From Bacteroidota bacterium (GTDB lineage: Bacteria > Bacteroidota > Bacteroidia > Chitinophagales > Chitinophagaceae): a DNA stretch of 64,000 bases. Shown one piece after another: positions 42,481-64,000 of this stretch. The stretch is taken from the NCBI GenBank assembly GCA_030706735.1, contig JAUZNZ010000008.1:1-64000 (forward strand). The letters run 5' to 3'. Every line of letters begins with the position of its first letter. The first letter of the stretch is position 1. The position numbers were made by a program, and so were the translations under genes. Below the pieces are notes generated by a model, which saw only the letters and a list, made by a program, of their open reading frames with translations, had not been told where the DNA came from and did not search any database.

Positions 42481-42503
42481 GCATAAACATTTAAACAGTT
42501 GAT

Positions 42504-44005: not shown

Positions 44006-45451
44006 ATGAGAAAAAGGATCATCCATGATATTTCCGCCAGTTCGCTACAGGTGATCATCAGCCAGTTGGCCGGGCTGATCCTCTTTTTCGTTACGTCATC
44101 CTACCTCAGCAAGTCCGTATTCGGGCAGTTGAACTGGGCCCTGGCCGTGCTCCTGGTCAGCTTCGCCGTCCTGGGTTTCGGGATCGACCAGATCACGGTT
44201 CGCAAAATAGCTGCCGGCGAGGACGCCTCCTCCTATCTGAGGATCTATCTCTTCCACGTATTGCTGACCGGTATCCTTTTCCTCGCCCTGCTGTCCTCGG
44301 TCTCGCTGATTTCTGGAAACGGCTATGCAAGGTGGAACCTGCTGCTCTTTCTGGCGATCGGACAGTTTTTTACCTTTTTGTCACTGCCATTCAAGCAGAT
44401 CGCTAATGGGAAGGAGGACTTCAGGGCGCTCCTCTTCATGTCAGCAGGCGCCAATCTCATCAAAGTGACCGGCATTTTCTTGCTGGCCCTGCTACACGCC
44501 ATCACGCTCGATTCCTTTGTACTGTTATATGTGCTGGCGGCTGCCGCCGAATTGTTGATCAGTATTTTTGCCGCCCGCCATTTTCTTAACCTCCGGGCCG
44601 GCATAACCTGGGATCGCCGGCGCTACTCCCGCCTCATCCGGGAGTCGTTGCCGCAATTGGGCGTAATCCTTTGCTCTGCAGGCATCGCCCGCTTCGATTG
44701 GATCTTCCTCGGTATCATCTCTACCGCGCCCGTCGTGGCAGAATACAGTTTCGCGTACCGGGCATTCGAGGTGTCGAGCCTTCCCTTACTGGTGCTGGCG
44801 CCTCTCCTGCTCCCCAGGATTACCCGCTGGTTTGCCGGTTCGGACAATACCCCCCTCCGGGGCCGGCGAAAGGCGGGCCTCTTCCTCCTTGCTCGTTTCG
44901 AGATGATCCTGGCCTGGGGCTGTGCCCTCGTATTGAATATGATCTGGGCTCCCCTCGTCGATTGGCTTACCGGCAATCGGTATGGTGCGGTCAATTCCGC
45001 GATCTTCTTATTGCTGTCCTGTTCGCTTCCATTCTTGTATATCAACAATCTGCTGTGGTGCATTCATTTTGCCCTGGGACGCATGAAATTTATTTTTTTC
45101 GTGTTTATGATCACCCTCCTGATTACCTCTGCGGGGGACCTGATCCTGATCCCTTTCTTCCAGGGTAAGGGCGCGGCCATTGCCTACTTGTCGGCCATCG
45201 TCGTGCAGACCATTCAATTCATCCATCATCGCGGCAAGGACCGGATGGTGACCGGCATGGCCAGGCTCTGGCAACCTCTGCTCCTTTGCGGTGCCTCGGC
45301 CCTGATCAGCGGATGGCTCGCCATCCATCTCCATGAAGGTACGGTCCTCCGCTTGCTCGCCGCCATGGGGGCATACCTGGTTTTGCTGTTTGCCAGCGGG
45401 CAACTCAGGGTACATGATTGGGTCACCTGTAAAAGGATGATCTATGCATGA
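44006..45451 (+). CDS. polysaccharide flippase (Wzx/MATE-like)
   Basis: This is an integral inner-membrane protein of 481 residues with about 12-14 hydrophobic segments, as in polysaccharide biosynthesis/MVF flippases. Its N-terminus (IHDISASSLQVIISQLAGLI) and the VFGQLNWALAVLLVSFAV segment are family-like. It is the first gene of the glycan cluster and probably moves a lipid-linked oligosaccharide across the inner membrane. It overlaps the polymerase-like gene by eight bases. Confidence 0.87.
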   Translation: MRKRIIHDISASSLQVIISQLAGLILFFVTSSYLSKSVFGQLNWALAVLLVSFAVLGFGIDQITVRKIAAGEDASSYLRIYLFHVLLTGILFLALLSSVSLISGNGYARWNLLLFLAIGQFFTFLSLPFKQIANGKEDFRALLFMSAGANLIKVTGIFLLALLHAITLDSFVLLYVLAAAAELLISIFAARHFLNLRAGITWDRRRYSRLIRESLPQLGVILCSAGIARFDWIFLGIISTAPVVAEYSFAYRAFEVSSLPLLVLAPLLLPRITRWFAGSDNTPLRGRRKAGLFLLARFEMILAWGCALVLNMIWAPLVDWLTGNRYGAVNSAIFLLLSCSLPFLYINNLLWCIHFALGRMKFIFFVFMITLLITSAGDLILIPFFQGKGAAIAYLSAIVVQTIQFIHHRGKDRMVTGMARLWQPLLLCGASALISGWLAIHLHEGTVLRLLAAMGAYLVLLFASGQLRVHDWVTCKRMIYA

Positions 45452-47096
45452 GGCGAAGGTACTGCCCGCTGAACCAAAGGCCCCGGCCATCGATTGGGCC
45501 TTGTTCCTCTTCCTCGTTCTTTTTCTGAATGTAAGGCTGCCCTGCAAGCTGATCGCTCTCGTCCTCATCTTTGTCCTAAGGCCAGATTTCCGATTCGGGC
45601 TTCGCCTTCCCTTTCGTCGGGATGGACGTAGATCGAGATTGCCCTTATTCTATCCGGCCATGGCACTCATCGCCTTGTGGAACGCTTTCGCCCATGGGCC
45701 CCTGACAGGAACAAATTATGGTTTTTCCCTGGCCGGAGGCCTGGCCTATTGGATGGCGGGGCTTCTGGCTATTCATCAGGTCAAACTCGCCGTAGATCGT
45801 CTTCCTGCAACGACCCTGCATCGCACATTGGTCGCATTCTTTGCGATCAACGCCGCCGTATCCATTTTTACGCTATTGAAGATCATGATAGAGGCCAGAA
45901 CGTTTAACCCGTATCTCTACCAGGGCGAATATCAAAAATACTTTATCAACACGGGTGACTATATTCGCGGGATACTCTTCGATACATCGAGTGCAAATGC
46001 GCTGATCAATGCCTTTGGCGTGCTCTATTTCATTTCGCGGAAGCGCGCGGGAATGGCCCTGATCTGTATGACGGTAATGCTGTTGACGGGCAGCAACGCC
46101 ACCGATATCATTGCCTTCTGCGCCTTATTATGGATGCTCATCGCCGGCCGCGGCCGGGAACGAAAAAGCCTGGCGCTGCTAAGCCTGTTCATGCTGATCC
46201 TTTTCACCGTCCGGATCTCGCCGCAAAATCATCTCTATGTGTTCGGCACGATAGAGAACAGTCTTTCGAAAGGACCCGGCACAGGGGTAAATGCAGACAA
46301 ACCGGCAGTACGCATCACCGATATGCCCGATAGTCTTCTTGACAGGGACGGACGAAGAATGAAGATCGCTACCCGCTATGTGGACAGCGTAAGCTACCTG
46401 TTCTGGCTGAAAAGAGACTCGGTCTATAAACGGCTCGGGGTGCAATGGCCGAAAATACGACCCCGTCCCAGGCCCGATCTGGACGCCCCCGAATTCCAAA
46501 GCCGCCTGGATACCACATTGGAAATGCGCAAAAAATTGTTGGAGTTCATCAGGCTGCAACACATGGAAGACCAGGTCGCCATGGCGGGCGAAGGCTATGG
46601 CCGTCTTCCAGGGAAGTTCATCGCTATGCGACAGGCGATCGACTTCCTGCGGCGCCATCCGGGAAAATGGCTTTTCGGCGACGGCATGGGGAACTATTCC
46701 TCCAAACTCGCTTTTCGCTCCACCGGACTGGGGATGTCCGGCAAATACCCGGAGAGCATCCGGTACATAAGCCCGGAATTCAAGGCCGGCCACCTGGCTC
46801 TCTATCTCTATTACTTTACGAAAGGGCCCGCCTTGCACTCCGTGCTCAACACGCCCGATTCCGTTTACGACCAGATGCTCGCCGAATATGGGTTGGCCGG
46901 TGTCCTCATTTTCGTGTTCTTTTATCTTGGGTATTTTTGCCGGCAACCGGGCAGTACCGGAATACCGTTGTTATTCATGATGGCGATCGGTTTTTGCCTT
47001 AATTACTGGTTTGAGCAACTTTCAGTGGTCGTGGTCTTTGAGCTGATCATGCTCATGGATCGGAAAGAAAGTCTTTCGGCTGTCACAAAAGAATGA
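45444..47096 (+). CDS. O-antigen polymerase/ligase-like membrane protein
   Basis: This is a 550-residue membrane protein with about ten hydrophobic segments and a large polar loop (about residues 275-455), the architecture of Wzy or WaaL proteins. The loop contains RHPGKWLFGDGMGNYSSK, similar to the GxGxG-like glycan part of O-antigen ligases. Which of the two it is cannot be told. It overlaps the flippase before it and the GT2 after it (by four bases). Confidence 0.75.
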   Translation: MHEAKVLPAEPKAPAIDWALFLFLVLFLNVRLPCKLIALVLIFVLRPDFRFGLRLPFRRDGRRSRLPLFYPAMALIALWNAFAHGPLTGTNYGFSLAGGLAYWMAGLLAIHQVKLAVDRLPATTLHRTLVAFFAINAAVSIFTLLKIMIEARTFNPYLYQGEYQKYFINTGDYIRGILFDTSSANALINAFGVLYFISRKRAGMALICMTVMLLTGSNATDIIAFCALLWMLIAGRGRERKSLALLSLFMLILFTVRISPQNHLYVFGTIENSLSKGPGTGVNADKPAVRITDMPDSLLDRDGRRMKIATRYVDSVSYLFWLKRDSVYKRLGVQWPKIRPRPRPDLDAPEFQSRLDTTLEMRKKLLEFIRLQHMEDQVAMAGEGYGRLPGKFIAMRQAIDFLRRHPGKWLFGDGMGNYSSKLAFRSTGLGMSGKYPESIRYISPEFKAGHLALYLYYFTKGPALHSVLNTPDSVYDQMLAEYGLAGVLIFVFFYLGYFCRQPGSTGIPLLFMMAIGFCLNYWFEQLSVVVVFELIMLMDRKESLSAVTKE

Positions 47097-48064
47097 ATGT
47101 TAATGATATGACTGCACCAAGGGTCACCATGCTGATGCCTGCCTATAATGCGGGCAAATATATCGCCGAAGCGATCCGGTCGGTATTGGCCCAGGATTTT
47201 TCAGATTTTGAGCTGCTGATCGTGGATGACGGTTCCACCGATGACACCCGGGAGGTCATCGGCCGGTTTTCAGATCCGAGGATCCGCCTCCTGGAACAGG
47301 AGAATAAGGGGATCTCCGCGGCCCTGAATGCCGGGCTCACCGCCGCCAGAGGGATCTATATTGCCCGCTTCGACGCCGACGATATCTGTCTCCCGCAACG
47401 GCTTTCACGTCAGACCGCCTTCCTCGATGCCAACCCGGACTATATTCTCGTCGGCAGCGAAGCGGAATACGTATCCGAAGATGGCGAGCACCTTTTCCAT
47501 TTCCGCTGTATCGCCTATTCCTATCCGGAGATCATGTCCAGGATCGTCCATGCCTGCCCTTTTATACATTCTGCCGTCATGTACAGGCAAAAAGAGGTGC
47601 TGGCCGCCGGCGCTTATTCGCTGTATGCCCATAACTTCGAAGACTATTTCCTATGGATTCAACTGGTGCGGACAGGCAAATGCTGCAACCTGCCCGAAGT
47701 GCTGATAAAAGTAAGGATCAACCCCGATTCGGCAACGATCGACGAGAAATGGCGGGGCAGGCATTTCCGCCGGTTAAAGAAGAGGATAATCCGAAGAGGG
47801 GTGATCACGCCTGAGGAAGGGAACAAGCTGCTGGCCATTATAATGGATCAAAACAACCGGAAAATGAAAGAAGGTTCCTACCACGCACTCTGCGGGAAAA
47901 AATACCTGGCCGACAACTATCAGCCCGAAAAAGCACGATGGCACGTGACCCGGGCAATCCATATCCACCCATTCCGACTCGATAATTACGGCATCCTGGC
48001 GGCAACTTTCCTGCCGCCGGGCTGGATCAAATGGCTGCTTCGGAGGAGCCCCGGCAAAAGCTGA
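47093..48064 (+). CDS. glycosyltransferase family 2
   Basis: This is a cytoplasmic GT-A fold transferase. The nucleotide-sugar site begins VTMLMPAYNAGKYIAEAIRS, then IVDDGSTDDT and the DxD-like FDADDICL. Downstream, ACPFIHSAVMYR and NFEDYFLW fit acceptor-side motifs of family 2. The C-terminal helices hold no membrane segment. It probably adds one sugar to the lipid-linked repeat unit. It overlaps the polymerase-like gene by four bases. Confidence 0.93.
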   Translation: MNVNDMTAPRVTMLMPAYNAGKYIAEAIRSVLAQDFSDFELLIVDDGSTDDTREVIGRFSDPRIRLLEQENKGISAALNAGLTAARGIYIARFDADDICLPQRLSRQTAFLDANPDYILVGSEAEYVSEDGEHLFHFRCIAYSYPEIMSRIVHACPFIHSAVMYRQKEVLAAGAYSLYAHNFEDYFLWIQLVRTGKCCNLPEVLIKVRINPDSATIDEKWRGRHFRRLKKRIIRRGVITPEEGNKLLAIIMDQNNRKMKEGSYHALCGKKYLADNYQPEKARWHVTRAIHIHPFRLDNYGILAATFLPPGWIKWLLRRSPGKS

Positions 48065-48066
48065 AT

Positions 48067-49002
48067 ATGGAACGCTCCATTTTTCCCGATCCTCCGCTCG
48101 TTACGGTGGTCATCGCCACGTATAACCGGCAAAGGCTGGTCAAACAGGCCATCGCCTCGGTCCTGGGGCAGACCTATCCGCATTGGGAGCTCATCGTTGC
48201 AGACGACGGGTCACGGGACGATACGGTGGCTGAGGTCCGATCCCTGGCCGATCCCCGGATCCGGGTCCTGGAATTGCCCCATACGGGCATCATCGCTGCC
48301 GTCAGAAATGCCGGGGTGGCGGCAGGAACCGGATATTGGGTTAGTTTTCTGGATTCCGACGACCTATGGCTTCCGCATAAACTGGAGGAACAATTGGGTT
48401 TGCTGAACCGGGAGAACAAACGCTGGGCTTACGGCGGATTCGAGTTGATGAACGAGAGCGGAGAAACGATCTCTAACAAAGCGGGAACCTATTCGGCCAT
48501 TTCCGGGTGGATCATCAGACCGCTGCTCAGGTGTGAGGCTTCGGTCAATATCGGGTCTCTCATCGTGGAGCGCACCCTTTTTGATGAGATCGGCGGATTC
48601 GATTCCGATCCATTGCTCAATTTTCGCGAGGACTATGACCTGGCCCTTCGATTGGCGATGAAGGCCGAGGCAGCAGCTTCTTCGCATCTGGTCATGAGGG
48701 TCAGGGAGCATAAGGGACGGGTGACCAGCCTGGCGGGTGGCGGCAACGAACGATCCGGCTATGCCTACCGGCACTTCCTGGGGTACTCGCCCGGTAAGGA
48801 CCTGGAAAGAATAGCGCGGCGGCAACTGGCTTTTCATCTTGCCGAATCGGCGGTAAACAGGTTCTTGGCCGGCCAGCATTCGACGGCTATCCGGGAGTGG
48901 TGGATGGCATTGTGTAACGGCGATAAGGGCAGACATTTATTTTCGTCCTTGCGCCGGATGATCCGTGGCAAGGGCAACCATATTCAAGATATTAGCCAGT
49001 GA
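48067..49002 (+). CDS. glycosyltransferase family 2
   Basis: This is another GT-A transferase. PLVTVVIATYNRQRLVKQAI, IVADDGSRDDT and FLDSDDLW (DxD) are visible, then SLIVERTLFDEIGGFD and EDYDLALRL. The ATG at 48067, two bases after the previous stop, starts just before the catalytic domain; an upstream ATG at 48031 overlaps the preceding gene. It ends in a four-base overlap with the GTG of the ABC gene. Confidence 0.93.
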   Translation: MERSIFPDPPLVTVVIATYNRQRLVKQAIASVLGQTYPHWELIVADDGSRDDTVAEVRSLADPRIRVLELPHTGIIAAVRNAGVAAGTGYWVSFLDSDDLWLPHKLEEQLGLLNRENKRWAYGGFELMNESGETISNKAGTYSAISGWIIRPLLRCEASVNIGSLIVERTLFDEIGGFDSDPLLNFREDYDLALRLAMKAEAAASSHLVMRVREHKGRVTSLAGGGNERSGYAYRHFLGYSPGKDLERIARRQLAFHLAESAVNRFLAGQHSTAIREWWMALCNGDKGRHLFSSLRRMIRGKGNHIQDISQ

Positions 49003-50666
49003 ACGACGTCGTTAGAAATATTTTCGCCATTCTTGACCGGAAGGAAAAGAAGTTACTGGCCAGACTCATCGCATTTGACGTGATCATCAGCCTCCTTGAC
49101 ATCGCCTTCCTGGTCGCCCTGCTCTACATTGTTCAGTTCTTCACGCAATCCATTCGCCCGGCCGGATTCGCCCGTTTCCCCTTTTCTATATTCGACCGGT
49201 CTCCGCTACTGCTGATAACGACCTTCTTCCTGCTGTTCAGCCTCAAGAACCTGGCTGCCTTTCTCGTTCTCCGGACACAATTCCGGTTCGTCTACGGGGT
49301 AGCATCCAGGCTTTCCCGGAACAACCTCTCACTTTACCTGAAAGGCGCCTATGCCGGATATGTCGATGTCAACTCCTCGGTACAGATACGGAAGATCAAC
49401 CAGCATCCCATCGAGTTCGGGCATCACGTACTGGGCGGTTTTCAACAGATCGTCGGTCAGGGACTACTGATCCTGATCACCGTGGCGGCCACGCTGATCT
49501 ACAATCCCGTCCTGTTCCTGCTGCTATTCCTCATCCTTACCCCGCCCATCGTATTGACCGGCTTTCTGATCAGGCGAAAGATGGGCCGGGTGCGCAGAAC
49601 CGCCAAGCCGGTGAGCGAAAAAGCGCTCCAATATCTGCAGGAGGCGCTGGCCGGGTTTGTAGACAGCAGCATTTACGGTTGCGAAGATTTTTTCGTCCGC
49701 CGTTACGACGCCTGCCAGTCCGCATTTAACGGGTTCCTGGCGGATCAGCAGGTTATCCAGAACATACCCTCGAAGCTGATCGAAGTATTTGCAGTTTTCG
49801 GGTTCTTCGTCCTGGTGCTCATCAATTCCTATACGGGCAATACCAACACGATCCAATTGATCACGATCGGCGCGTTCATGGGCGCCGCATACAAGATCAT
49901 TCCCGGGATCGTCAGGATCCTGAACAGCGTGGGCCAGATCAGGACCTATGGATTTACCGCCGCCGAGCTCGCCGCCGAACGGAACAAGCACGTCCAAAGG
50001 GGGGCCGCGGACAAGGCGACTATCCGGTCCATCGGGTTTTCCGACGTTTCCTTCTGGTACGCGGACGAGCCCGTCTTGCGGGATTTTTCAATGAGCCTTT
50101 GCCCCGGGGAAATGGTCGGTCTTTCCGGCGTCTCCGGCAAGGGTAAGACGACCGTGGTCAACTTGTTACTGGGCTTTATAGAGCCTTCATCCGGCAGCAT
50201 TTCGATAAATGGTCAGAAAATGTCCGCGCCGGAACGCAGGAAGTACTGGAGTCAGATCGCTTATGTGAAGCAGCAGCCATTCATGATCTCCGATACGGTT
50301 CTCCGCAATATCGTATTGAGCGAGCAGGCAGAAGATCCCGCGAGACTGGAAATGGTCTTCAGCAAATTGGGCCTGGACGGCCCCGGTGGCGTATTTCCGG
50401 AAGGCTCGGGCAAATTGTTGACGGAAGATGGAAGGAATATCAGCGGAGGCCAGCGTCAACGGATCGCCTTCGCCCGGGCACTCTATAAAAAGGCGGACTT
50501 GCTCATCCTGGACGAGCCGTTCAACGAGCTCGATGAGGCGTCCGAAGGTATCTTGCTGGGATATTGCCGCCAGCTGGCGGCGGAAGGGATGGCGATCCTG
50601 CTGATCACCCATAACAGCAAAAGCCTGACGGCTTGCGATAAAATCGTCTCACTGAATGGATCCTAA
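48999..50666 (+). CDS. ABC exporter (fused membrane and ATPase domains)
   Basis: This is a type I ABC exporter half-transporter. The first 330 residues have about six membrane segments; the ATPase domain follows with Walker A GVSGKGKTT, Q-loop, signature ISGGQRQRIAFARAL, Walker B LLILDEPFNELDE and an H-loop in LLITHNS. It starts with GTG, overlapping the upstream stop. One gene suggests a homodimer. The substrate may be a lipid-linked glycan or another product of this cluster. It adds a second exporter beside the flippase. Confidence 0.93.
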   Translation: MNDVVRNIFAILDRKEKKLLARLIAFDVIISLLDIAFLVALLYIVQFFTQSIRPAGFARFPFSIFDRSPLLLITTFFLLFSLKNLAAFLVLRTQFRFVYGVASRLSRNNLSLYLKGAYAGYVDVNSSVQIRKINQHPIEFGHHVLGGFQQIVGQGLLILITVAATLIYNPVLFLLLFLILTPPIVLTGFLIRRKMGRVRRTAKPVSEKALQYLQEALAGFVDSSIYGCEDFFVRRYDACQSAFNGFLADQQVIQNIPSKLIEVFAVFGFFVLVLINSYTGNTNTIQLITIGAFMGAAYKIIPGIVRILNSVGQIRTYGFTAAELAAERNKHVQRGAADKATIRSIGFSDVSFWYADEPVLRDFSMSLCPGEMVGLSGVSGKGKTTVVNLLLGFIEPSSGSISINGQKMSAPERRKYWSQIAYVKQQPFMISDTVLRNIVLSEQAEDPARLEMVFSKLGLDGPGGVFPEGSGKLLTEDGRNISGGQRQRIAFARALYKKADLLILDEPFNELDEASEGILLGYCRQLAAEGMAILLITHNSKSLTACDKIVSLNGS

Positions 50667-51759
50667 CGCCAGGATAACCGACGTCGGTCCCGGGTCGACC
50701 GGGAAAAGGCCCAGGACCCTGGTGATCCTCAGTCCGGGCTTTCCGAAAGATGAATCGGACAGCACCTGCCTGCCTGCGCAACAGCTCTTCGTGAGCGCGC
50801 TCAACCGTTGTTTCCCCACGCTGCAAGTCGTTATCCTGGCTTTTGAATATCCATTCAGTAAAGAACCGTACAGATGGCATGGTAATCTCGTCATCCCTTT
50901 CGATGGGTGGAATAAGGGCCGGCTGAATAAGGTCCTGGTATGGACAAAGGCATGGAACACCCTCAACGGCCTGCGCCATGACCGGGATGTTCTCGGGTTA
51001 CTCAGTTTTTGGTGCACTGCCTGCAGCCTGGTCGGAACCTGGTATGGAAGACGAAAGGACCTGCCTCATTTTACCTGGATACTTGGACAAGACGCGCGCA
51101 GGAACCGCTACATACGCTTTATACGACCGCGGCCGGAGCATTTGGTCGCCATGTCGGATTCCCTGGCAACCGAGTTCCGGGCAAATTATGGCATTCTCCC
51201 CCGGCATATCGTGACAAACGGGATCGACGCCGCCCAATATCCCCGACCCGCCCGGGACGCGTCCGCCCGCGATATCGATGTACTGGGGGTCGGATCGCTC
51301 ATCCCGTTGAAGCAATACGATCTTTTTCTTGCCGTGATCAGGCAGATGGCGGATCGACGTCCCGATATCCGCAGCGTCATCTGCGGCAAGGGTCCCGAAG
51401 AGGACCGCCTGCGGGAACTTATCCGGAAAGAACGGTTGGAGGACAAGGTGGAATTGGCCGGGGAACGCCCCCATGACGAAGTGCTGCGGCTCATGCAGCG
51501 CTCGCGGGTATTTCTTCACACGTCCTCCTACGAAGGCTTCAGCACAGTTTGCCTGGAGGCCCTGTACGCAGGGGCGCACGTGCTCAGCCTCGTCAAACCG
51601 ACCCCTCTCCCCGTCAAACATTGGCAGGTCGCCGACCGTTGGCAAGACATGGCTGGCCTGGCGTTGGGGATCCTTCAGGATCCGGCGCCGGATCACTCTC
51701 CCGTACTGCTATACACGATGGACGACAGCGCACGCGGGATGATGCGTCTATTCGAATGA
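50656..51759 (+). CDS. glycosyltransferase family 4
   Basis: This is a GT-B fold transferase. RTLVILSPGFPKDESDST starts the N-terminal domain, and ILGQDARRNRYIRFIRP and HIVTNGIDAAQYPRPARDAS lead to the C-terminal donor domain (LGVGSLIPLKQYDLFLAVI, EAL-type signature SYEGFSTVCLEALYAGAHV). It overlaps the ABC gene by 11 bases. Minor oddity: the LAVI helix is followed by GKGPEEDRLRELIRKE, the usual family feature. It probably adds a sugar to the repeat unit. Confidence 0.92.
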   Translation: MDPNARITDVGPGSTGKRPRTLVILSPGFPKDESDSTCLPAQQLFVSALNRCFPTLQVVILAFEYPFSKEPYRWHGNLVIPFDGWNKGRLNKVLVWTKAWNTLNGLRHDRDVLGLLSFWCTACSLVGTWYGRRKDLPHFTWILGQDARRNRYIRFIRPRPEHLVAMSDSLATEFRANYGILPRHIVTNGIDAAQYPRPARDASARDIDVLGVGSLIPLKQYDLFLAVIRQMADRRPDIRSVICGKGPEEDRLRELIRKERLEDKVELAGERPHDEVLRLMQRSRVFLHTSSYEGFSTVCLEALYAGAHVLSLVKPTPLPVKHWQVADRWQDMAGLALGILQDPAPDHSPVLLYTMDDSARGMMRLFE

Positions 51760-51768
51760 TCGATACCG

Positions 51769-52917: not shown

Positions 52918-52946
52918 CCGTACCGCATTTACATAACTCAAATTAC

Positions 52947-52954
52947 TATTTTTA
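52947..52954 (+). promoter_or_regulatory. putative -7 element before the methyltransferase gene
   Basis: TATTTTTA, followed by GGG, is one base off TAnnTTTG and lies 18 bases before the ATG at 52973. It resembles the TAAATTTAGG sites at 26144 and 31069. No -33 box was seen. Confidence 0.25.
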
Positions 52955-52972
52955 GGGCCCTTATATTCCGTT

Positions 52973-54594: not shown

Positions 54595-54617
54595 GCCCCC
54601 GGTCAAAACTCCTCCGC

Positions 54618-55793: not shown

Positions 55794-56530
55794 GGACCCG
55801 GAGCAATTAAATGAAGGCCGTAAATGATCCTGACGCCATAAAATCGATCATAGAGGGCAAGAGCTTGTTGCTGCTCATAGTAGGGCCGGACCGCATCGTC
55901 GATCACTTTCTCCACGCAACGTTCGATCCGCAGATTGAGCTCTCCGGCGATCTCCTTCAGCCTGTCAAGTGGATGGATATGGTTCCTCACGGCCAGGACC
56001 CGGTCATTGTGCCGGAAGGTCCGCTGGCCACCCCTTGCGAGGGCATCGGGATGGTAATCGGTGATCAGGATGGATCCACCCGGCCTTAAGACCCTCCGCC
56101 ACTCCTGCAAGGCGGATGCAATATCGTCTATATGGGCTACCGTCAGCGTGGACAGGACAAGATCGCAGGTTTCGTCGGCGAGGCCCGGCAACCGCTCATC
56201 CCTCAGCAAATGGGTCTCCGCTCCGGGATATTTCCTCTGCAACATGCCCAGCATGCCCGGGGATACATCATAGCCTGCCAACCTGGCGGGCTGGGCCTCC
56301 AGCAGCCTGGCCCAATGACGGCCAGTACCGCAGCCGACATCAGCCACGATCTTGCCCCGGATCACCAGATCAGACATCAATTCCGAGCATACTTGTTCAT
56401 CGAGGGCGAGCATCAGATTCCCAGGCTGGTCGTCGTAGCCCTCCGCCCATTGGTCATAGGCCTTTGCCGGCTCCAGTTCTTTTTTCCGGATCGATGGGAA
56501 ATACCGCCTGAGTCTGTTCAATAGAGGCAT
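55790..56530 (-). CDS. class I SAM-dependent methyltransferase
   Basis: This is a 246-residue methyltransferase, UbiE/COQ5-like. KAYDQWAEGYDDQPGN opens it, IVADVGCGTGRHWARLLE is motif I, CDLVLSTLTVAHIDD is at strand four, and LRPGGSILITDYHPDA is motif III. It is the first gene of a two-gene minus-strand operon with the amidohydrolase and is divergent from the radical SAM gene at 56614. Confidence 0.9.
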   Translation of the reverse strand: MPLLNRLRRYFPSIRKKELEPAKAYDQWAEGYDDQPGNLMLALDEQVCSELMSDLVIRGKIVADVGCGTGRHWARLLEAQPARLAGYDVSPGMLGMLQRKYPGAETHLLRDERLPGLADETCDLVLSTLTVAHIDDIASALQEWRRVLRPGGSILITDYHPDALARGGQRTFRHNDRVLAVRNHIHPLDRLKEIAGELNLRIERCVEKVIDDAVRPYYEQQQALALYDRFYGVRIIYGLHLIAPGP

Positions 56531-56613
56531 CCTTTGAAGAATAATCAGCGTTTAGTATGAATAGAAATCACAAAGGTATACACAAAACGACTACCAAGTA
56601 AGTAATAGACTAT

Positions 56614-58113
56614 ATGAATAAGGTTCTTTTGTACAATCCGGTCAGTGCCATCGCTAAGCACCGGGTGCCTAATTCTCTTATGAATATAGCTGCGTCGGTC
56701 GAGGGGATGTTCGAGTGGGTGATCGTCGATGGTAACCGGGAACCCGATCCCTATCGGAAGATTGCCGGCTATCTGGCAACCGGTGAATACAAGTACATCG
56801 GATTTACCGTCATGCCCGGGCCGCAGGCCAAACAAGCCATTCCATTCGCCAAACGGATCCGGAGAGAGTTTCCCGGCACCGTCATGATCTGGGGCGGATA
56901 TTTTCCCACCAACCACTACAAGGTCGTGCTGAATTCCGGCTATGTCGATTTCGTGATCAACGGCCCGGGAGACCATGCCTTTCCCCGTCTGCTCCGGGCA
57001 TTGGAAAACAATGAACCCTACGAACTGATCCGGAATGTCATTTATCGGTCCGGAGACAAAGTGATCAAGACTACGAAGGAGGATCTGATCGAGCAGGACA
57101 CCCTGCCCCCCCTGCCATACGATAAACTGGCCGGATTCTATCCGATCGAGAAGTACCTGGGAAAAACCTACCTGGGGAACCGGACCCTGGCCTACCATTC
57201 CAGTATCGGTTGCCCTTTCACCTGTTCGTTCTGCGCCGTGGTTCCGACCTATGAGGCCAGATGGAAGGCCAAATCGGCGGAACATGTCTATCGTGACGTC
57301 AAGTATATCAAGGAACGCTGGGGCGCCGATGCCATCGAGTTCCACGACAACAATTTCTTCGTGTCGGAGCGGCGGACGGTCGAATTTTCCCGGTTGCTGA
57401 AACCCGAGAAGATGAACTGGTGGGGAATGGCCAGGATCGATACCATGGATAAATTCAAGGACGAGTCCCTGGCCCTGATCAGGGAGGCGGGCTGCAAGAT
57501 CATCTTTTTCGGAGCAGAGAGCGGGAACGACTCGGTATTGAAGCAACTCGATAAGGGCGGTACGCAGACCGGCGAACAGATCGTACGATTCGCCGAACGA
57601 TTGAAGAAATTCGATATCATCCCGGAATATTCCTTCGTGCTCGGAACGCCTGCCGAAACGCCCGAAAAGGTCATGGCGCAGATCGAGTTCGATATCGACT
57701 TTATCCGGCGGGTAAAGGCGGTCAATCCCAGGACCGAGATCGTCCTGTATACGTATAGCCCCGTTCCAACCGAGGGATCGGAGCTCTATCAGCAGGTACT
57801 GGCGACCGGGTTCCAATATCCCCGGACCCTCGAAGATTGGGTCAGCCCCCAGTGGGAACGGTTCGACATGCGCAAAAACCCCCTGACGCCCTGGCTTACC
57901 CCCGCGATGATCGAAAAGATCAGGAATTTCGAGACGGTGCTGAACGGCTATTATCCGACCGTCTCTGACATTCGCCTGAATACCTTTAAGCGCAAGATGA
58001 TCCATTTCGTTTCAGGCCTGCGCTACCGGGCGAATATGTACAAATATCCTTACGAAATAAAGCTCCTGCACAGGCTGTGGAAATACCGCCAGCCTGAGAT
58101 TCAGGGTTTCTAA
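56614..58113 (+). CDS. B12-binding-domain radical SAM enzyme
   Basis: The N-terminal 180 residues form a cobalamin-binding Rossmann-type domain (MNKVLLYNPVSAIAKHRVPN; IGFTVMPGPQAKQAIPFAKR; VMIWGGYFPTN). The radical SAM barrel has the cluster motif CPFTCSFC with Cys200, Cys204 and Cys207, followed by VEFHDNNF-type and GAESGNDSVL strands. The C-terminal 100 residues are helical. Such enzymes do methylations or skeletal changes on unactivated carbons, or join C-C bonds. The substrate is unknown. It starts the longest co-directional run at the end of the window. Confidence 0.92.
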   Translation: MNKVLLYNPVSAIAKHRVPNSLMNIAASVEGMFEWVIVDGNREPDPYRKIAGYLATGEYKYIGFTVMPGPQAKQAIPFAKRIRREFPGTVMIWGGYFPTNHYKVVLNSGYVDFVINGPGDHAFPRLLRALENNEPYELIRNVIYRSGDKVIKTTKEDLIEQDTLPPLPYDKLAGFYPIEKYLGKTYLGNRTLAYHSSIGCPFTCSFCAVVPTYEARWKAKSAEHVYRDVKYIKERWGADAIEFHDNNFFVSERRTVEFSRLLKPEKMNWWGMARIDTMDKFKDESLALIREAGCKIIFFGAESGNDSVLKQLDKGGTQTGEQIVRFAERLKKFDIIPEYSFVLGTPAETPEKVMAQIEFDIDFIRRVKAVNPRTEIVLYTYSPVPTEGSELYQQVLATGFQYPRTLEDWVSPQWERFDMRKNPLTPWLTPAMIEKIRNFETVLNGYYPTVSDIRLNTFKRKMIHFVSGLRYRANMYKYPYEIKLLHRLWKYRQPEIQGF

Positions 58114-58126
58114 ACTAATAAAAGCC

Positions 58127-58891
58127 ATGGGATTACCCGACTCTTCCATTTTGACAAATATCCAGGTTCCGGGCCGGACGACCCCCTCGGACATCCTGTT
58201 CGAGAAGAAATATATCACCACCAGGGGGCTCGAGAACAGGCTATATTCCGATGACGAGTTGATCCGGCTTCCGGAGATCGACCCCGAACACACGCACTAT
58301 CGCGAATGGCAGCTGCGGCAGCGTTCGGGCAGACGCATTGTCCGCTATCTGACCGGGAAGAAAAAAGCCCTGGATATCCTGGAGATAGGCTGCGGTAACG
58401 GTTGGCTGTCCCACCAGCTGGCCGGGATCCCCGGAACCCGGGTAACAGGGTTAGATATCAATTTCACGGAATTGCAACAGGCCGCCAGGGTATTCAGCGA
58501 TGATCCGAACCTGGTCTTTATCCACGGAGACATCCGGTCGGGCATCTTATACGGCAGGCAATTCGATTGCATCGTATTTGCTGCATCGATCCAATACTTC
58601 GCCTCGCTGAAAAAGATCGTCTATCTTTCTTTGTCCTACCTAAAGCCGGGAGGTGAGATCCATATTTTCGATTCCCATTTTTACCGGCCGAAGGAGTTGG
58701 AGACGGCCAGAAGAAGAACAATGGCCTACTATACCTCTCTCGGATACCCGGAAATGGCCGATTTTTATTTTCACCATGGCGTGAGGGACCTGCGGTCCTT
58801 TCACCACAGCATACTTTACAACCCGCTCTCTTTCCGGAACAGGCTGCTTAGAGGGAAGACGCCATTCCTTTGGGTTCGGATAACCAAATAA
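58127..58891 (+). CDS. class I SAM-dependent methyltransferase
   Basis: This is a 254-residue methyltransferase with a 70-residue N-terminal extension. DILEIGCGNGWLSHQLAGIP is motif I and TGLDIN the acidic residue; FDCIVFAASIQYFASLKKIV and LKPGGEIHIFDSHFY are the later motifs. It lies 13 bases after the radical SAM gene and seven bases before the SPASM-type gene, so it is in one operon with both. Confidence 0.88.
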   Translation: MGLPDSSILTNIQVPGRTTPSDILFEKKYITTRGLENRLYSDDELIRLPEIDPEHTHYREWQLRQRSGRRIVRYLTGKKKALDILEIGCGNGWLSHQLAGIPGTRVTGLDINFTELQQAARVFSDDPNLVFIHGDIRSGILYGRQFDCIVFAASIQYFASLKKIVYLSLSYLKPGGEIHIFDSHFYRPKELETARRRTMAYYTSLGYPEMADFYFHHGVRDLRSFHHSILYNPLSFRNRLLRGKTPFLWVRITK

Positions 58892-58898
58892 TGATACA

Positions 58899-59939
58899 AT
58901 GGCTATCGGTTCGCTCTATCATACGTTTCAACGGTACCGGACGCTGCAGACGGACAAGATCTCGGCCCTTCCCATCGTGATCCTGATGCCCCACAGCGCC
59001 TGCAACTGCAAATGCGTGATGTGCGACATCTGGAAAGGCAATCATAACCTGAAACAACTCACGGAACGCGACGTGGAGGCCCTGATGGATAGCCTGAAAC
59101 GGCTCGGCACCCGCCAGGTCGTCATGTCCGGCGGAGAGGCGCTGCTCAATCCGAATTTTTTCTCTTTCTGCGATATCCTGCGCAGAGGAAATATCAGGAT
59201 CACCCTGCTCTCGACCGGCCTTTCCCTGCATCGCCATGCCGCCCGGCTGATCGGCTCGGTGGACGATATCATTATTTCGCTGGACGGGGACGAACGCCTC
59301 CACGACAGCATCCGTAACGTTCCGGGCGCATTCCGCAAGCTGAAGGAGGGAGTGGCCAGCCTGCACGCCCTCAAGCCATCGTTCCGGGTCACCGGCCGGT
59401 CCGTCATTCACCGGCTCAATTTCAGGCACTGGCCTGCCATCATCGAGGCGGGCGCCGCCATGGGGTTGGACCAATTGAGCTTTTTGCCGGCGGACGTGAG
59501 CAGCGAGGCATTCAACCGTGCTCAGCCCTGGGATGAGCCCAGGCAGCACGAGATCCTGCCGGGCCTGGAAGAACTTCCGGAATTGATGGAGATCATCCGG
59601 CAGATCATCCGGGACCAGGCTGCCCGGTTCGACTCTTCATTCATCGCGGAATCGCCGGCCAAACTGGCCCGGATCGGGGAATACTATGCGGCATTCTATG
59701 GCCTCAATCCCTTTCCCTACAAAAAGTGCAATGCTCCCTGGGTTTCGGCGGTCGTGGAGGCGGATGGCACGGTACGGCCCTGTTTCTTTCACGCCCCCCT
59801 GGGTAATATCCATGAGAATTCGCTGGCCGCGATCCTGAATAGCGAAAAAGCCGTCGGCTTCAGAAAGTCGTTGGATATGGATGCCGATCCGACCTGTGTC
59901 AAATGCGTCTGCTACCTGAACCTTTCACCGCGTTCCTAA
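58899..59939 (+). CDS. radical SAM/SPASM enzyme
   Basis: The radical SAM cluster is SACNCKCVMC with Cys35, Cys39 and Cys42, followed by VVMSGGEALLNP (the GGE motif). The C-terminal Cys-rich region (KCNAPWVSAVVEADGTVRPC, then DPTCVKCVCYLN) fits a SPASM/twitch domain with further Fe-S clusters. SPASM enzymes modify peptides, sugars or other small molecules. No precursor-peptide gene was found close by. It lies between a methyltransferase and a GT39-like gene. Confidence 0.9.
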   Translation: MAIGSLYHTFQRYRTLQTDKISALPIVILMPHSACNCKCVMCDIWKGNHNLKQLTERDVEALMDSLKRLGTRQVVMSGGEALLNPNFFSFCDILRRGNIRITLLSTGLSLHRHAARLIGSVDDIIISLDGDERLHDSIRNVPGAFRKLKEGVASLHALKPSFRVTGRSVIHRLNFRHWPAIIEAGAAMGLDQLSFLPADVSSEAFNRAQPWDEPRQHEILPGLEELPELMEIIRQIIRDQAARFDSSFIAESPAKLARIGEYYAAFYGLNPFPYKKCNAPWVSAVVEADGTVRPCFFHAPLGNIHENSLAAILNSEKAVGFRKSLDMDADPTCVKCVCYLNLSPRS

Positions 59940-59949
59940 TCTGTGCGAA

Positions 59950-61518
59950 ATGGAGAAGAACAAAGAACTGCCGCTAAGGATATTGTTTCCGTTGCTGACG
60001 GCCTACCTGGTCATCAGCATCGCGGGGATGCTCCGGCATGAATTGTGGCTGGACGAGGCGCAGCACTTCCTCATTGGCCGGGACAGCCATTCCTTTACGT
60101 CGATGTACTATAATATGCGCTACGACGGACATCCCCGGCTATGGAATTTCCTGCTCTACCTGATCACCCATTATATCACGGAAAGCTATGCAGGCATGCA
60201 GGTATTTCATCTGTTGATCACGACAGGCACGATATTCGTCTTCCTCCGCTATGCTCCTTTCCATCTCTTGATCAAGATATTGGTTATCTCAGGCTATTAC
60301 TTCCTTTTTGAATATAACCTGCTGAGCCGGAATTACGCGCTGGGCATACTGCTCCTCTTCATTTGCTGCGTATGGCTTCGCGATCCGCGGAAGAATATCG
60401 TCCGGATCGGATTGTTGCTCCTGCTCATGTGCAATACACATCTTTTTTACGCCTTCGCGGCGATCGGGATCTTCCTTTTCCTGCTTCCGGAGTTCGCGCG
60501 AAATAAAGAGCTTTTCACGCCGGGCTGGCTGGCATTCTCCGGCCTCTTCCTTGCCGGTCTGGCTTGCATAGCGGTCCAAACCATGACCCCGCAGGTCGAC
60601 AATTTCTATCACGTCCGGCCCTCGGAATGGCTGACGTCGAAGAACCTGTCCTTTACTGGCTACGGCCTAATCAGGGGATGGCTCCCCATTCCCCAGTTTT
60701 ATAGTGGTCATTTCTGGAATACCTACTGGCTGCAGGACCGGAATATAGGGACCATTTTGCGGGACATCCTTTTCCTATTTTTTCTGGCCTTTCCTGGTTT
60801 CGTCCTTTGGAAAACGGCACGCGGCCGGCGGGCCATGCTTTTCTATTACAGCAGCCTGACCATCTTGCTGGCTTTTTTCATCGTCACACAATTGGCGGCT
60901 TCGAGATATTTCGGGATGGTGTATATCTATTTCCTGGCTGCATGCTGGATGACGGGCAACGATTCCGGAGATGTCTTTTCAATGGATCACCTGCTGGGCC
61001 GCCCGCGTCTGAGAGGGTTCCTGCGTACCTCATGGTACGCTGTGCTGATCGCACAGATCCTGATCGGCGCCTTCGCACTGGAACAGGATTTCAGCCGCCC
61101 CTTCTCGCAGGCGAAGAACGCCATCGGATATATCCGCGATCGCGGACTGACAGGACAGGAAGTGGCGGTGGACGGCTACAACTCGGGCCCAATGCTGAGC
61201 GCCTACCTGGGCCGGATGGTATATTATCTCGATATCAGCCAGCCGGGCAGTTGGGTTTATTGGAAAACTTCCTATTTCCCCAATCCCAGGCGATCGCTCA
61301 CCGATGAGATGTCCCGGTCAGCCTATTTGCAGGGATTGGATAGGTTTATTCTGATCGCCAACCGGCAGGAGGATACGCATGAAATGCGGTTTGGCAACAC
61401 CGTTTTTCGGCTGCAATTGCTGGACCGGTTTGAAAACAGCATATTGGTGGCTGAAAATTTTTACGTCTATCAGGTAACCAGGACGGCGAATAATTCAACA
61501 TGGGCAATCAACAAATGA
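59950..61518 (+). CDS. GT39/PMT-like integral membrane glycosyltransferase
   Basis: This is a 522-residue membrane protein with about ten or more hydrophobic segments. HELWLDEAQHFLIGRD in the first loop is the DE motif of polyprenyl-phosphate-sugar transferases, and the C-terminal 120 residues form a soluble periplasmic domain. It probably adds a sugar from a lipid carrier on the periplasmic face. It overlaps the next radical SAM gene by four bases (ATGA). Confidence 0.78.
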   Translation: MEKNKELPLRILFPLLTAYLVISIAGMLRHELWLDEAQHFLIGRDSHSFTSMYYNMRYDGHPRLWNFLLYLITHYITESYAGMQVFHLLITTGTIFVFLRYAPFHLLIKILVISGYYFLFEYNLLSRNYALGILLLFICCVWLRDPRKNIVRIGLLLLLMCNTHLFYAFAAIGIFLFLLPEFARNKELFTPGWLAFSGLFLAGLACIAVQTMTPQVDNFYHVRPSEWLTSKNLSFTGYGLIRGWLPIPQFYSGHFWNTYWLQDRNIGTILRDILFLFFLAFPGFVLWKTARGRRAMLFYYSSLTILLAFFIVTQLAASRYFGMVYIYFLAACWMTGNDSGDVFSMDHLLGRPRLRGFLRTSWYAVLIAQILIGAFALEQDFSRPFSQAKNAIGYIRDRGLTGQEVAVDGYNSGPMLSAYLGRMVYYLDISQPGSWVYWKTSYFPNPRRSLTDEMSRSAYLQGLDRFILIANRQEDTHEMRFGNTVFRLQLLDRFENSILVAENFYVYQVTRTANNSTWAINK

Positions 61519-62984
61519 AAAAGATCCTTTTTTCTCATTCTTACTTTATGCGCCTGGATCCCAAGCAATGGGAAACGGGACAACCCTATCCGCCCCTGGG
61601 AACCCTTCATGCGGCCGCATTCATGCGGGCCAACGGTTTCCCCGTCGCCTTGTTCGATACGCAGTTTGCAGAAGGGCCCGATAAGTTGATCGATTGGCTG
61701 GATGCGGAACGCCCCGATGTTTTCGTGATCTATGACGACGGCTTCAACTACCTGACTAAAATGTGCCTCACCAATATGCGTGAAGCGGCATTCCGGATGA
61801 TTCGGCTGGCCAAGGAACGAGGCTGCACGGTGATCCTCTCCGGTTCCGATTCTACAGACCATTATCAGAAATACCTGGAACACGGGGCGGATTTTGTCCT
61901 CCTGGGAGAAGGGGAAATGACACTCCTGGAACTCATCACCGCGATCCGGTACGGCGTGCTGGATTTTTCCCAGATCCCCGGCCTGGCATTGCGTCAACAT
62001 AATGATCCTATAAAAACTACAGGGCGAAAATTGATCAAAGACCTCGATGCATTGCCCATGCCGGCGTGGGATCTTGTAGATATGAGTATGTACAGGAATA
62101 CCTGGCTCAGTCACGCCGGCTATTTTTCTCTCAACGTCGGAACGACTCGCGGCTGCCCCTTCAAATGCAACTGGTGCGCAAAGCCTATCTATGGGAATAG
62201 GTACCATGCCAGATCGCCCCGCCACGTGGTGGAAGAACTTAAATGGCTGAAGGAACAGTACGCCTTTGACCATATCTGGTTTTGCGACGATATCTTCGGG
62301 CTGAAGCCGGGGTGGGTCGATGAATTTGCCGATCTGGTCGAAGAGGCCGGACTGAAGTTCCGGTTCAAGATCCAATCCCGCGCCGATCTGCTGGTACAGC
62401 AAAATTATGTCCGGGCACTGGCCCGGGCCGGATGCGCCGATGTCTGGATGGGCGCGGAGAGCGGTTCCCAAAAGATACTCGACGCCATGGACAAGGGCAT
62501 CACCGTCGAACAGATCCGCGTGGCCACGCAACTCCTCAGGCAGCACGGCGTGAAAGCCTCCTTCTTCATCCAGTTCGGCTATCCGGGTGAGACGCGCGAA
62601 GATATTCAAAAGACGATCCGGATGATCAATACCTTGCTTCCGGACAGCCTCGGCATTTCCGTCTCTTACCCATTGCCAGGCACCGTATTTTACGAACGCG
62701 TGAAGGCTGATCTCAAAGAAAAAGCCAATTGGACCGACTCCGATGAACTGCAGATCATGTTCCGTAACGCCCATACGCCGGCCTTTTACAAACAGCTGCA
62801 TCGCTACGTGCACAAAACCTATCGCAGACACCTTGCCCTGGCAAGTCTGAAGAACCTCTTTGCACATCCCGCCGCTACGTCCTGGGCTTCTCTTAAACGC
62901 GCAGCCTCCCTGGCCTGGTACACCCCAAGCGCCCTCCTGGCCGGCTATCGCCTCCACCGGATAGCTAAAATCCCTCATTCTTAG
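61515..62984 (+). CDS. B12-binding-domain radical SAM enzyme
   Basis: This is a second B12-type radical SAM protein, only distantly like the first. The cobalamin domain includes PYPPLGTLHAAAFMRANGFP, VFVIYDDGFNYLTKMC and ADFVLLGEGEMTLLELI. The radical SAM motif CPFKCNWC gives Cys214, Cys218 and Cys221, then WFCDDIF and GAESGSQKILDAMDKG. The start at 61515 forms an ATGA overlap with the previous stop; an ATG at 61500 is the alternative. The C-terminal 90 residues are helical and basic. The substrate is unknown. Confidence 0.92.
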   Translation: MKKILFSHSYFMRLDPKQWETGQPYPPLGTLHAAAFMRANGFPVALFDTQFAEGPDKLIDWLDAERPDVFVIYDDGFNYLTKMCLTNMREAAFRMIRLAKERGCTVILSGSDSTDHYQKYLEHGADFVLLGEGEMTLLELITAIRYGVLDFSQIPGLALRQHNDPIKTTGRKLIKDLDALPMPAWDLVDMSMYRNTWLSHAGYFSLNVGTTRGCPFKCNWCAKPIYGNRYHARSPRHVVEELKWLKEQYAFDHIWFCDDIFGLKPGWVDEFADLVEEAGLKFRFKIQSRADLLVQQNYVRALARAGCADVWMGAESGSQKILDAMDKGITVEQIRVATQLLRQHGVKASFFIQFGYPGETREDIQKTIRMINTLLPDSLGISVSYPLPGTVFYERVKADLKEKANWTDSDELQIMFRNAHTPAFYKQLHRYVHKTYRRHLALASLKNLFAHPAATSWASLKRAASLAWYTPSALLAGYRLHRIAKIPHS

Positions 62985-63004
62985 TACCTTAATGAAGCAA
63001 ACGC

Positions 63005-63853
63005 ATGTCGATGAACGAGTTGAGCCATGATCGGAACGAACAGGACGCGGCCTCGGCCTTCAGCAGACAGGCGCCCCTCTTCGATCAATATGACGCCGGG
63101 AATACGATCATTCAATATAAACGCCGCCGCGTACGTGATTGCGTCATGCAATGCCTCGCTCCGGGCAGCACGATCCTCGAGCTCAATGCCGGAACGGGTC
63201 AGGATTCGATCTGGCTGGCGGGTAAGGGCCACAAGGTGCACGCCACCGACATCGCACCGGGTATGCTCGCCGAGCTCGAAAAAAAAGTCAACGCCCTGGG
63301 ATTGGCCGCACAGGTGACCTGGGAACCCTGTTCGTTCACACAGCTGGCGGGGTTGAGATCCAAGGGGCCCTACGACCTGATCTTTTCCAATTTCGCAGGC
63401 CTTAACTGCACCGGCAAATTGGACGAGGTGCTGAACTCTTTTTCCGGATTGCTGAAGCCTGGTGGGCATGTCCTGCTCGTCGTATTGCCCTCCTTCTGCC
63501 TTTGGGAATCCTTACTGTTGTTCAGGGGGAAGTTCAGAACGGCTTTCCGGCGTCTGTTTGCTAAAAAAGGGGCCCGCTCACGCGTGGAGGGCGTCTATTT
63601 CAAATGCTGGTATTATCCTCCATCTTATATTACCCGCGTCCTGGCCCGGTCTTTCACGCTGAAAGGGCTCGAAGGGTTATGCAGCATCGTCCCGCCTTCC
63701 TATATCGAGCAATTCGCCGAGCGGCATCCCAAATTATACCATTGGTTGGTTAAAAAGGAAGATCGTTGGAAATCCAGCCGGCCATGGAGATCGATCGGGG
63801 ACTATTACATCATCACCTTGCAAAAGACGGAGGATCATTCCGCCGCGAAGTAA
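63005..63853 (+). CDS. class I SAM-dependent methyltransferase
   Basis: This is a 282-residue methyltransferase. The SAM site STILELNAGTGQDSIWLA contains ELNAGTGQD as motif I; HATDIAPGM and YDLIFSNFAGLNC follow, and LKPGGHVLLVVLPSF is motif III. An 80-residue C-terminal part (PPSYITRVLARSF region) may bind the acceptor. It is the last complete gene of the cluster, starting 20 bases after the radical SAM gene. Its end overlaps the 3' end of a convergent gene. Confidence 0.9.
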   Translation: MSMNELSHDRNEQDAASAFSRQAPLFDQYDAGNTIIQYKRRRVRDCVMQCLAPGSTILELNAGTGQDSIWLAGKGHKVHATDIAPGMLAELEKKVNALGLAAQVTWEPCSFTQLAGLRSKGPYDLIFSNFAGLNCTGKLDEVLNSFSGLLKPGGHVLLVVLPSFCLWESLLLFRGKFRTAFRRLFAKKGARSRVEGVYFKCWYYPPSYITRVLARSFTLKGLEGLCSIVPPSYIEQFAERHPKLYHWLVKKEDRWKSSRPWRSIGDYYIITLQKTEDHSAAK

Positions 63854-64000
63854 GCAGGCCACCGGGCCTCCAATCCCTTCATCTTGTCGGTGAAGAAGGC
63901 CATGATACGCGCTTGCAGATAGGCGGGATCCGGCTTGGAATAATGCTTGCCGGTCAGCAGGGACATCCGGTCGCCCTTTTTATTGCGCGCGCCGATATCG
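63835..64000 (-). CDS. 3' end of a gene running off the window
   Basis: A minus-strand frame of 54 codons to the window edge ends in a TGA at 63835 and reads protein-like, with KKGDRMSLLTGKHYSKPDPA and a C-terminal WPAYFAAE. Its end overlaps the methyltransferase gene by 19 bases in the convergent direction. I do not recognise the family; only the C-terminus is visible. Confidence 0.55.
   Translation of the reverse strand, partial: DIGARNKKGDRMSLLTGKHYSKPDPAYLQARIMAFFTDKMKGLEARWPAYFAAE

Follow-up and report, generated by a model that had tools for sequence, protein, structure and literature searches.

A Bacteroidota bacterium of the family Chitinophagaceae (assembly GCA_030706735.1, contig JAUZNZ010000008.1) carries 17 open reading frames (ORFs) packed into ~20 kb (44006-63853) of the stretch analysed here, which is 64,000 nucleotides long and is called the window below. 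On the evidence of its sequence, this locus is, in our judgment, reasonably probably a Wzx/Wzy-type surface-glycan cluster with a conserved modification cassette. The core of the cassette is a trio of genes for a nucleotidyltransferase (NTase), a B12-binding radical S-adenosylmethionine (SAM) protein (B12b), and a class I methyltransferase (MT4). Further genes, for a second B12-binding radical SAM protein (B12a), the methyltransferase-amidohydrolase pair MT2-AmH, and the pair of a methyltransferase and a SPASM radical SAM protein (MT3-SPASM), form layers added to this core. A literature search of titles and the starts of abstracts found no description of such a locus. New here are the conserved cassette, its core trio, the nested layers, and the likely non-glycan role of AmH.

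The trio straddles the end of the window, which is the first 64,000 positions of a contig of 164 kb; the assembly totals 5.05 Mb. B12b (61500-62984, forward strand) has both the PF04055 and PF02310 domains, with the motif CPFKCNWC at 219, and is followed by MT4 (63005-63853, forward strand, class I methyltransferase by Pfam). The NTase gene lies on the reverse strand, with the part for its C terminus at 63835-64000 and the whole gene spanning G000:C79:63835-64758, which equals L083:3835-4758 (G, C, and L numbers denote genomes, contigs, and loci). The three genes constitute the core because of their co-occurrence in a profile of 198 genomes from the phylum and in 25 further loci. With a threshold of E<=1e-60, B12b is found in 16 of the 198 genomes, and the NTase, at a line of E<=2e-17 that was set after the scores had been seen, is found in exactly the same 16, which span ten families. 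Under independence two sets of 16 in 198 would coincide by chance with a probability of ~1e-23, a figure to be read with the caution that the genomes are not independent; three further genomes have weaker NTase matches (7e-10 to 3e-8). MT4 is present in all 16 B12b genomes and in two others (G055 and G128). The additional layers are nested within this set: B12a occurs in 10 of the 16 and in 10/198 overall, and AmH (7 genomes) and SPASM (6 genomes) occur only inside the B12a set of 10. An earlier note on this DNA, written from sequence alone, had proposed looking for co-occurrence of these enzymes in Bacteroidota genomes, and such a comparison shows the joint presence of B12b, NTase, and MT4 in 16/198 genomes, with B12a, AmH, and SPASM nested. 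The distribution of B12a is patchy within the family as well, at 35 of 195 sampled genomes and 29 of the 167 good ones.

In a larger sample, B12b is present in 26 of 395 genomes, and one locus was taken from each of the other 25 B12b-positive genomes. MT4 is found in 25/25 of these further loci (in L102 by a tblastn match only) and the NTase in 24/25, the exception being L104, which ends 378 bases past B12b. The B12b and MT4 sequences are fused in L097 as a single ORF of 727 residues. L103 carries a B12a match of 475 bits and L100 an 85-residue piece of B12a. In L099 the NTase and B12b escaped ORF picking, which also chose an antisense frame in place of B12b of the window. Six loci that do not have B12a (L096, L099, L104, L105, L106, and L109) encode, beside MT4, another B12b-like protein with 34-38% identity to B12b; in L106 and L109, many ORFs, mostly of ~130-250 residues, lie between NTase-B12b and this B12b-like protein. 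L095 has sulfotransferase and APS (adenosine phosphosulfate) kinase genes among those of the trio (L095:6922-8070 and 12605-13147), which hints at a sulfated product there. A plasmid search gave no match for B12b or the NTase and, with B12a, 24 records that are every one below 30% identity. Viral contigs held no B12b relative, and among PHROGs B12b had one weak match of unknown function, with none for the NTase, the ORF labelled HYP, or the 59950-61518 protein.

The arrangement around B12a (56614-58113, forward strand; PF04055 and PF02310, CPFTCSFC at 200) is conserved among its close relatives. The best 80 loci among 519 confirmed candidates from bacterial genomes have B12a proteins 72-83% identical, and 79 of them are assigned to taxa that we take to be Bacteroidota. 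Complete relatives, in which B12a has 9 kb or more of sequence on both flanks, number 53, and the presence counts given for them here and below use bit-score lines that we chose; the locus sets overlap, with L085 and L033 apparently coinciding. B12b and MT4 are each present in 53/53 of these, the NTase is in the flank of B12a in 45/53, and MT2 and AmH occur both in 50, neither in 3, and singly in none. Gene order is largely kept in Chitinophagaceae, Mucilaginibacter, and Dyadobacter records. Within the locus the genes overlap or are separated by 31 bases or fewer, except for 83 bases between the divergent MT2 and B12a genes and 136 bases between the NTase and the priming enzyme. The tight packing and largely conserved order argue that the locus is not a chance assembly.

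Several lines of evidence tie the cassette to surface-glycan genes. At least one glycosyltransferase (GT) or priming transferase, from six families of this locus, is present in 53/53 complete relatives, and GT-like genes are found in 19 of the 25 further loci, not counting a weak GT29-like stretch in L093. The eight complete relatives that do not have the NTase in the B12a flank all carry it elsewhere in the genome: ~10 kb (L064), ~19 kb (L055), ~260 kb (L070), and ~810 kb (L078) from B12a, apparently on the same contig, and on other contigs in L047, L059, and L063. Seven of these eight regions, all but that of L057, were read. Among the five distant NTases, four (L110, L112, L113, and L115) adjoin genes for Wzy_C-like, GT4, GT2, polymerase-like, and flippase-like proteins, the last two related to their counterparts in the present locus. 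L111, the region of L055, contains the same set of glycan genes, and L114, the region of L064, contains the same cluster just past the flank. The locus in the window unites the two halves, the cassette and the NTase with its glycan-assembly genes. The company that the distant NTases keep, together with the joining of both halves in the window, supports a role in surface-glycan assembly. The earlier note's suggestion of an unusual modified glycan therefore gains from this setting, in synteny and co-occurrence, but nothing shows the C-methylation or branching that it envisaged.

The glycan-assembly part of the locus begins, on the forward strand, with a Wzx-like flippase (44006-45451; PF01943, 55.8 bits against a cut-off of 28.2), followed by a polytopic polymerase-like protein that we label wzy (45444-47096) and the glycosyltransferases GT2a (47093-48064) and GT2b (48031-49002), both with PF00535. 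An ATP-binding cassette (ABC) exporter (48999-50666, forward strand; PF00005) is present in 41/53 complete relatives and matches the PglK model along almost its whole length (163 bits against a cut-off of 1000). Next come GT4a (50656-51759, forward strand; 48/53) and GT4b (51769-52941, reverse strand; 46/53), both with PF00534. Two accessory genes on the forward strand follow: MT1, a class I methyltransferase by Pfam (52973-53647; 5/53), and HYP (53644-54594; 18/53), which overlaps MT1 by 4 bases and has no family match. On the reverse strand are AmH (54618-55793; PF07969/PF01979; 50/53) and, overlapping it by 4 bases, MT2 (55790-56530; class I methyltransferase by Pfam; 50/53). Downstream of B12a, on the forward strand, lie MT3 (58127-58891; class I methyltransferase by Pfam; 41/53), the SPASM protein (58899-59939; PF04055 and PF13186; 49/53), and a polytopic membrane protein that we label GT39 (59950-61518; 3/53). 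The locus continues for ~5.1 kb beyond the window end (extended view, L083) with the reverse-strand NTase, a priming phosphoglycosyltransferase of the Bac_transf type (L083:4895-5593; PF02397, 187 bits), two GT4 enzymes, and a polymerase/ligase of the Wzy_C family (L083:7771-9087; PF04932, 64.5 bits against a cut-off of 31.7).

Most of the gene list drawn up in the earlier note is recovered by Pfam, which confirms the flippase, the ABC exporter, four class I methyltransferases, two B12-type and one SPASM radical SAM proteins, and the amidohydrolase. Its count of five glycosyltransferases comes down to four, two GT2 and two GT4, since Pfam yields no match to the fifth (59950-61518), even with E<=1 as the limit; in some relatives the slot of this protein holds a PF13231 protein. 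The O-antigen-polymerase-like protein at 45444-47096 reaches PF04932 only below the cut-off (14.7 bits against 31.7), and the description of HYP as flavin-reductase-like finds no match in NCBIfam, Pfam, PHROGs, or PDB sequences. The slot between GT4b and AmH is variable, with MT1 and HYP in the window (52973-54594) and some loci, and a GNAT and polysaccharide deacetylase pair in others (L074:5888-6835, L069:6879-7886). Just upstream of the locus (42094-43978) are genes for a small cytochrome-like protein (below cut-off), YceI, and a DUF5777 beta-barrel; relatives of YceI and DUF5777 lie near the cassette in 7/53 complete relatives, in varying positions.

Each of B12a, B12b, and SPASM keeps the CxxxCxxC motif, and the two B12-type proteins match PF02310 at 38.2 and 36.4 bits (cut-off 32.1) in addition to PF04055. 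Statements on residues of B12b rest on an alignment of 30 rows, since a larger set of 81 rows takes in loci in which only B12a was nearby. For these three proteins, no NCBIfam match among those listed is over its cut-off (all 22 of 22 listed for B12a, the best 25 of 37 for B12b, and the best 25 of 56 for SPASM), with the curated cut-offs of HpnJ, BchE, PhpK, TIGR04295, and TIGR04072 all missed. The top-scoring models for B12b and B12a are BchE and HpnJ, far below cut-off, with B12b reaching 155 of 481 bits for BchE. Among solved proteins, B12b comes closest to 9ccb, AprD4, OxsB, and CysS, all of them distant relatives.

The NTase was modelled through its L017 orthologue, which is 42% identical to the protein of the window (mean predicted local distance difference test score, pLDDT, 92.9). 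The model has a winged helix at residues 1-65 and a nucleotidyltransferase domain at ~74-200. This domain is nearest to aminoglycoside nucleotidyltransferases (ANT) and MntA, with modest scores (Foldseek E 0.04-0.13, none at E<=0.001), and aligns with ANT 6un8 at Z 8.5 and 3.3 Å over 112 residues. The active-site motif G[GS]x(9-13)DxD is present in 67 of 68 NTase rows. The sequence misses the PF01909 cut-off (17.7 bits against 21) and has no Pfam match above cut-off, and an NTase profile gave no match among PDB sequences. The NTase is probably catalytic.

In a search of solved sequences with a profile of AmH built from 28 sequences, TM0936 came first (E 5.5e-12); we take this protein to be the homologue of DadD from Thermotoga maritima. 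Residues H60, H62, H171, E174, H201, and D247 of AmH are invariant in the 28 sequences and align with residues of TM0936 that we take to be its metal-binding and catalytic residues, the zinc ligands among them. The predicted fold of AmH (mean pLDDT 89.8) has adenosine deaminase 4gbd as its best Foldseek match. Its nine best structural matches are adenosine/methylthioadenosine (MTA)-type deaminases or unnamed amidohydrolases (Z 32.7-34.9, ~3 Å over 341-349 residues, 17-20% identity); the next neighbour is aminofutalosine deaminase (Z 31.6), tied with isocytosine deaminase and triazine hydrolases (31.0-31.5). AmH misses the curated cut-off of NF012037, with 15.1 of 779 bits. The passages on DadD in PMC10978960 describe it as a 5'-deoxyadenosine deaminase that acts on S-adenosylhomocysteine (SAH), and the T. 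maritima homologue as an MTA/SAH deaminase. A passage in PMC6079011 describes 5'-deoxyadenosine as toxic and as an inhibitor of radical SAM enzymes. Clearance by AmH of a by-product, 5'-deoxyadenosine or SAH, is plausible because of its deaminase-like fold and residues and the toxicity of 5'-deoxyadenosine. As a separate observation, deaminases of the cytidine deaminase (CDA) fold with a hydrophobic N terminus are encoded at L094:11123-11701 and L098:7238-7789 (PF00383) and, by likeness, in L107. Mutual replacement of AmH and these proteins is no more than a side remark, since their occurrence in 8 and 3 of the 25 further loci without overlap would often be expected by chance.

In a surface-glycan pathway, B12b and then MT4 could act on the same sugar-like substrate, with radical C-methylation or rearrangement followed by O-methylation. 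B12a, SPASM, MT2, and MT3 would add further changes. The NTase might nucleotidylate a hydroxyl of the sugar or activate the modified unit for use by a glycosyltransferase, and the glycosyltransferases would extend the unit on a carrier primed by the Bac_transf enzyme. The flippase and/or ABC exporter, together with the polymerase, would then complete the glycan, while AmH probably deaminates 5'-deoxyadenosine or SAH formed as by-products of the radical SAM and methyltransferase reactions. A more ambitious form of the proposal is that the trio is an undescribed, phylum-wide pathway for a new surface building block, such as a nucleotide-linked or nucleotidyl-capped sugar with C- and O-methylation, and that it has its own deaminase for radical SAM waste; we put this forward tentatively and regard it as doubtful in full.

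A number of observations weigh against the surface-glycan interpretation or parts of it. Among the genes scanned, none was recognised as part of a sugar-nucleotide pathway. Wza is the outer-membrane export protein expected for exopolysaccharide and capsule but not for O-antigen, and it is not encoded at the locus, the sole PF02563 match in the genome being on contig C43. We therefore prefer an O-antigen-like or other lipid-linked glycan over a Wza-exported polysaccharide. Nothing related adjoins the fifth distant NTase (L116). In L093, MT4 runs on into a GT29 (sialyltransferase)-like stretch (L093:8250-9953; 20.5 bits against a cut-off of 23) that is the sole sign of a glycosyltransferase there and that led us to drop L093 as an example of a locus free of such enzymes. 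MT4-like genes occur in G055 (C20:121677-122378) and G128 (C85:1604-2413), where B12b and the NTase have no match; these two matches are no weaker than some of those in the 16 B12b genomes and outscore MT4 of G073. The NTases of L088, L089, and L101 are only 24-26% identical. C-methylation may be one option among several for the B12-type enzymes because AprD4, which we take to be a diol dehydratase working without cobalamin, is among the nearest solved relatives of B12b. Finally, no recognised glycosyltransferase lies near the trio in five of the 25 further loci (L097, L099, L105, L107, and L108), where only some flanking ORFs were scanned with Pfam. These five loci favour a different explanation, that the trio has a separate product, be it a lipid, a cofactor-like compound, or a small molecule, with the glycan genes as a common partner, for instance in glycosylation, rather than a target. 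In L107 and L108 the trio sits among AnmK, ROK, and adenylate kinase genes, and the BchE and HpnJ models that score highest against the B12-type proteins are named for tetrapyrrole and hopanoid pathways, again far below cut-off. However, the presence of a glycosyltransferase or priming transferase in every complete relative, GT-like genes in 19/25 further loci with the weak stretch of L093 left aside, and four of five distant NTases beside flippase-like, polymerase-like, and glycosyltransferase genes make such a product possible but somewhat doubtful. The same synteny and co-occurrence of radical SAM and glycan genes make it very improbable that the radical SAM genes belong to an adjoining but unconnected pathway, which the earlier note had named as an outcome that would overturn its idea. 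Nor does the locus appear to match a known cluster with a defined product, the note's other such outcome, given that all NCBIfam matches listed for the radical SAM proteins fall below cut-off and the literature search found no such locus, in a comparison that did not include MIBiG or antiSMASH.

Two further alternatives concern single members of the cassette. With its winged helix at the N terminus, the NTase could be regulatory, and the weak likeness to the antitoxin MntA (7bxo, 6m6u) would suit a regulator or antitoxin-like protein instead of a biosynthetic enzyme. Set against this are the near-universal active-site motif and the joint occurrence with B12b in 16 genomes from ten families, and we consider a non-enzymatic NTase unlikely. 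The resemblance of AmH to deaminases of 5'-modified adenosines implies that AmH may not touch the glycan, and its linkage to MT2 in the 53 complete loci (50 with both, 3 with neither, 0 with one) fits a shared pathway substrate as well as it fits clean-up. Instead of by-products, AmH might thus deaminate an intermediate of the pathway, such as an adenosylated compound of the kind found in the futalosine route. Aminofutalosine deaminase as the next structural neighbour, despite its tie with isocytosine deaminase and triazine hydrolases, is in keeping with this idea, as are the CDA-fold deaminases beside the trio in L094, L098, and L107, where AmH is absent, although chance would often leave 0/25 loci with both. 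Against it, the top structural group of AmH consists of adenosine/MTA-type deaminases, L100 has AmH and no recognised MT2, and the window genes that were scanned include no recognised nucleosidase. Action on an intermediate is quite possible, if not what we would expect.

Under the surface-glycan interpretation, the cassette may be a sign of a bacterial surface sugar with unusual modifications, and the tight partner sets of the two B12-type proteins (NTase and MT4; MT2-AmH) in a surface-glycan setting make the hunt for their substrates testable. The best 80 loci include some from named strains of Mucilaginibacter, Dyadobacter, and Puia. Should AmH indeed be devoted to deaminating by-products, it would illustrate how waste clearance can be part of a biosynthetic cluster.

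The locus resembles known Wzx/Wzy loci for O-antigen or exopolysaccharide in having a flippase, a Wzy_C polymerase/ligase, Bac_transf, and GT2 and GT4 enzymes in one packed cluster. Unlike those loci, it has no Wza, and none of the genes scanned was recognised as a sugar-nucleotide gene; its three radical SAM proteins, four methyltransferases, NTase, and deaminase-like amidohydrolase also set it apart. With cobalamin-dependent radical SAM enzymes (CysS, TokK, OxsB, and TsrM, and the BchE, HpnJ, and PhpK models) the B12-type proteins share the B12-binding and radical SAM domains and the CxxxCxxC motif. However, these matches are distant, the cut-offs of the listed models are all missed, and AprD4 is as near as the methylases. 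The model TIGR04295 (B12_rSAM_oligo), whose name we read as suggesting oligosaccharide loci, describes the same kind of B12-binding radical SAM protein, but B12b scores only 86 bits against a cut-off of 400. AmH shares the fold and the aligned H-x-H, H..E, H, and D residues of MTA/SAH/5'-deoxyadenosine deaminases (TM0936, 4gbd, 4f0r; DadD); at 17-20% identity and with the family cut-off missed, it may be said to work like these enzymes rather than to be one. The NTase has the G-S..D-x-D motif of aminoglycoside nucleotidyltransferases and MntA (kanamycin nucleotidyltransferase, KNTase, fold), and its nucleotidyltransferase domain aligns with ANT 6un8, but it differs from them in its additional winged helix and C-terminal helices.

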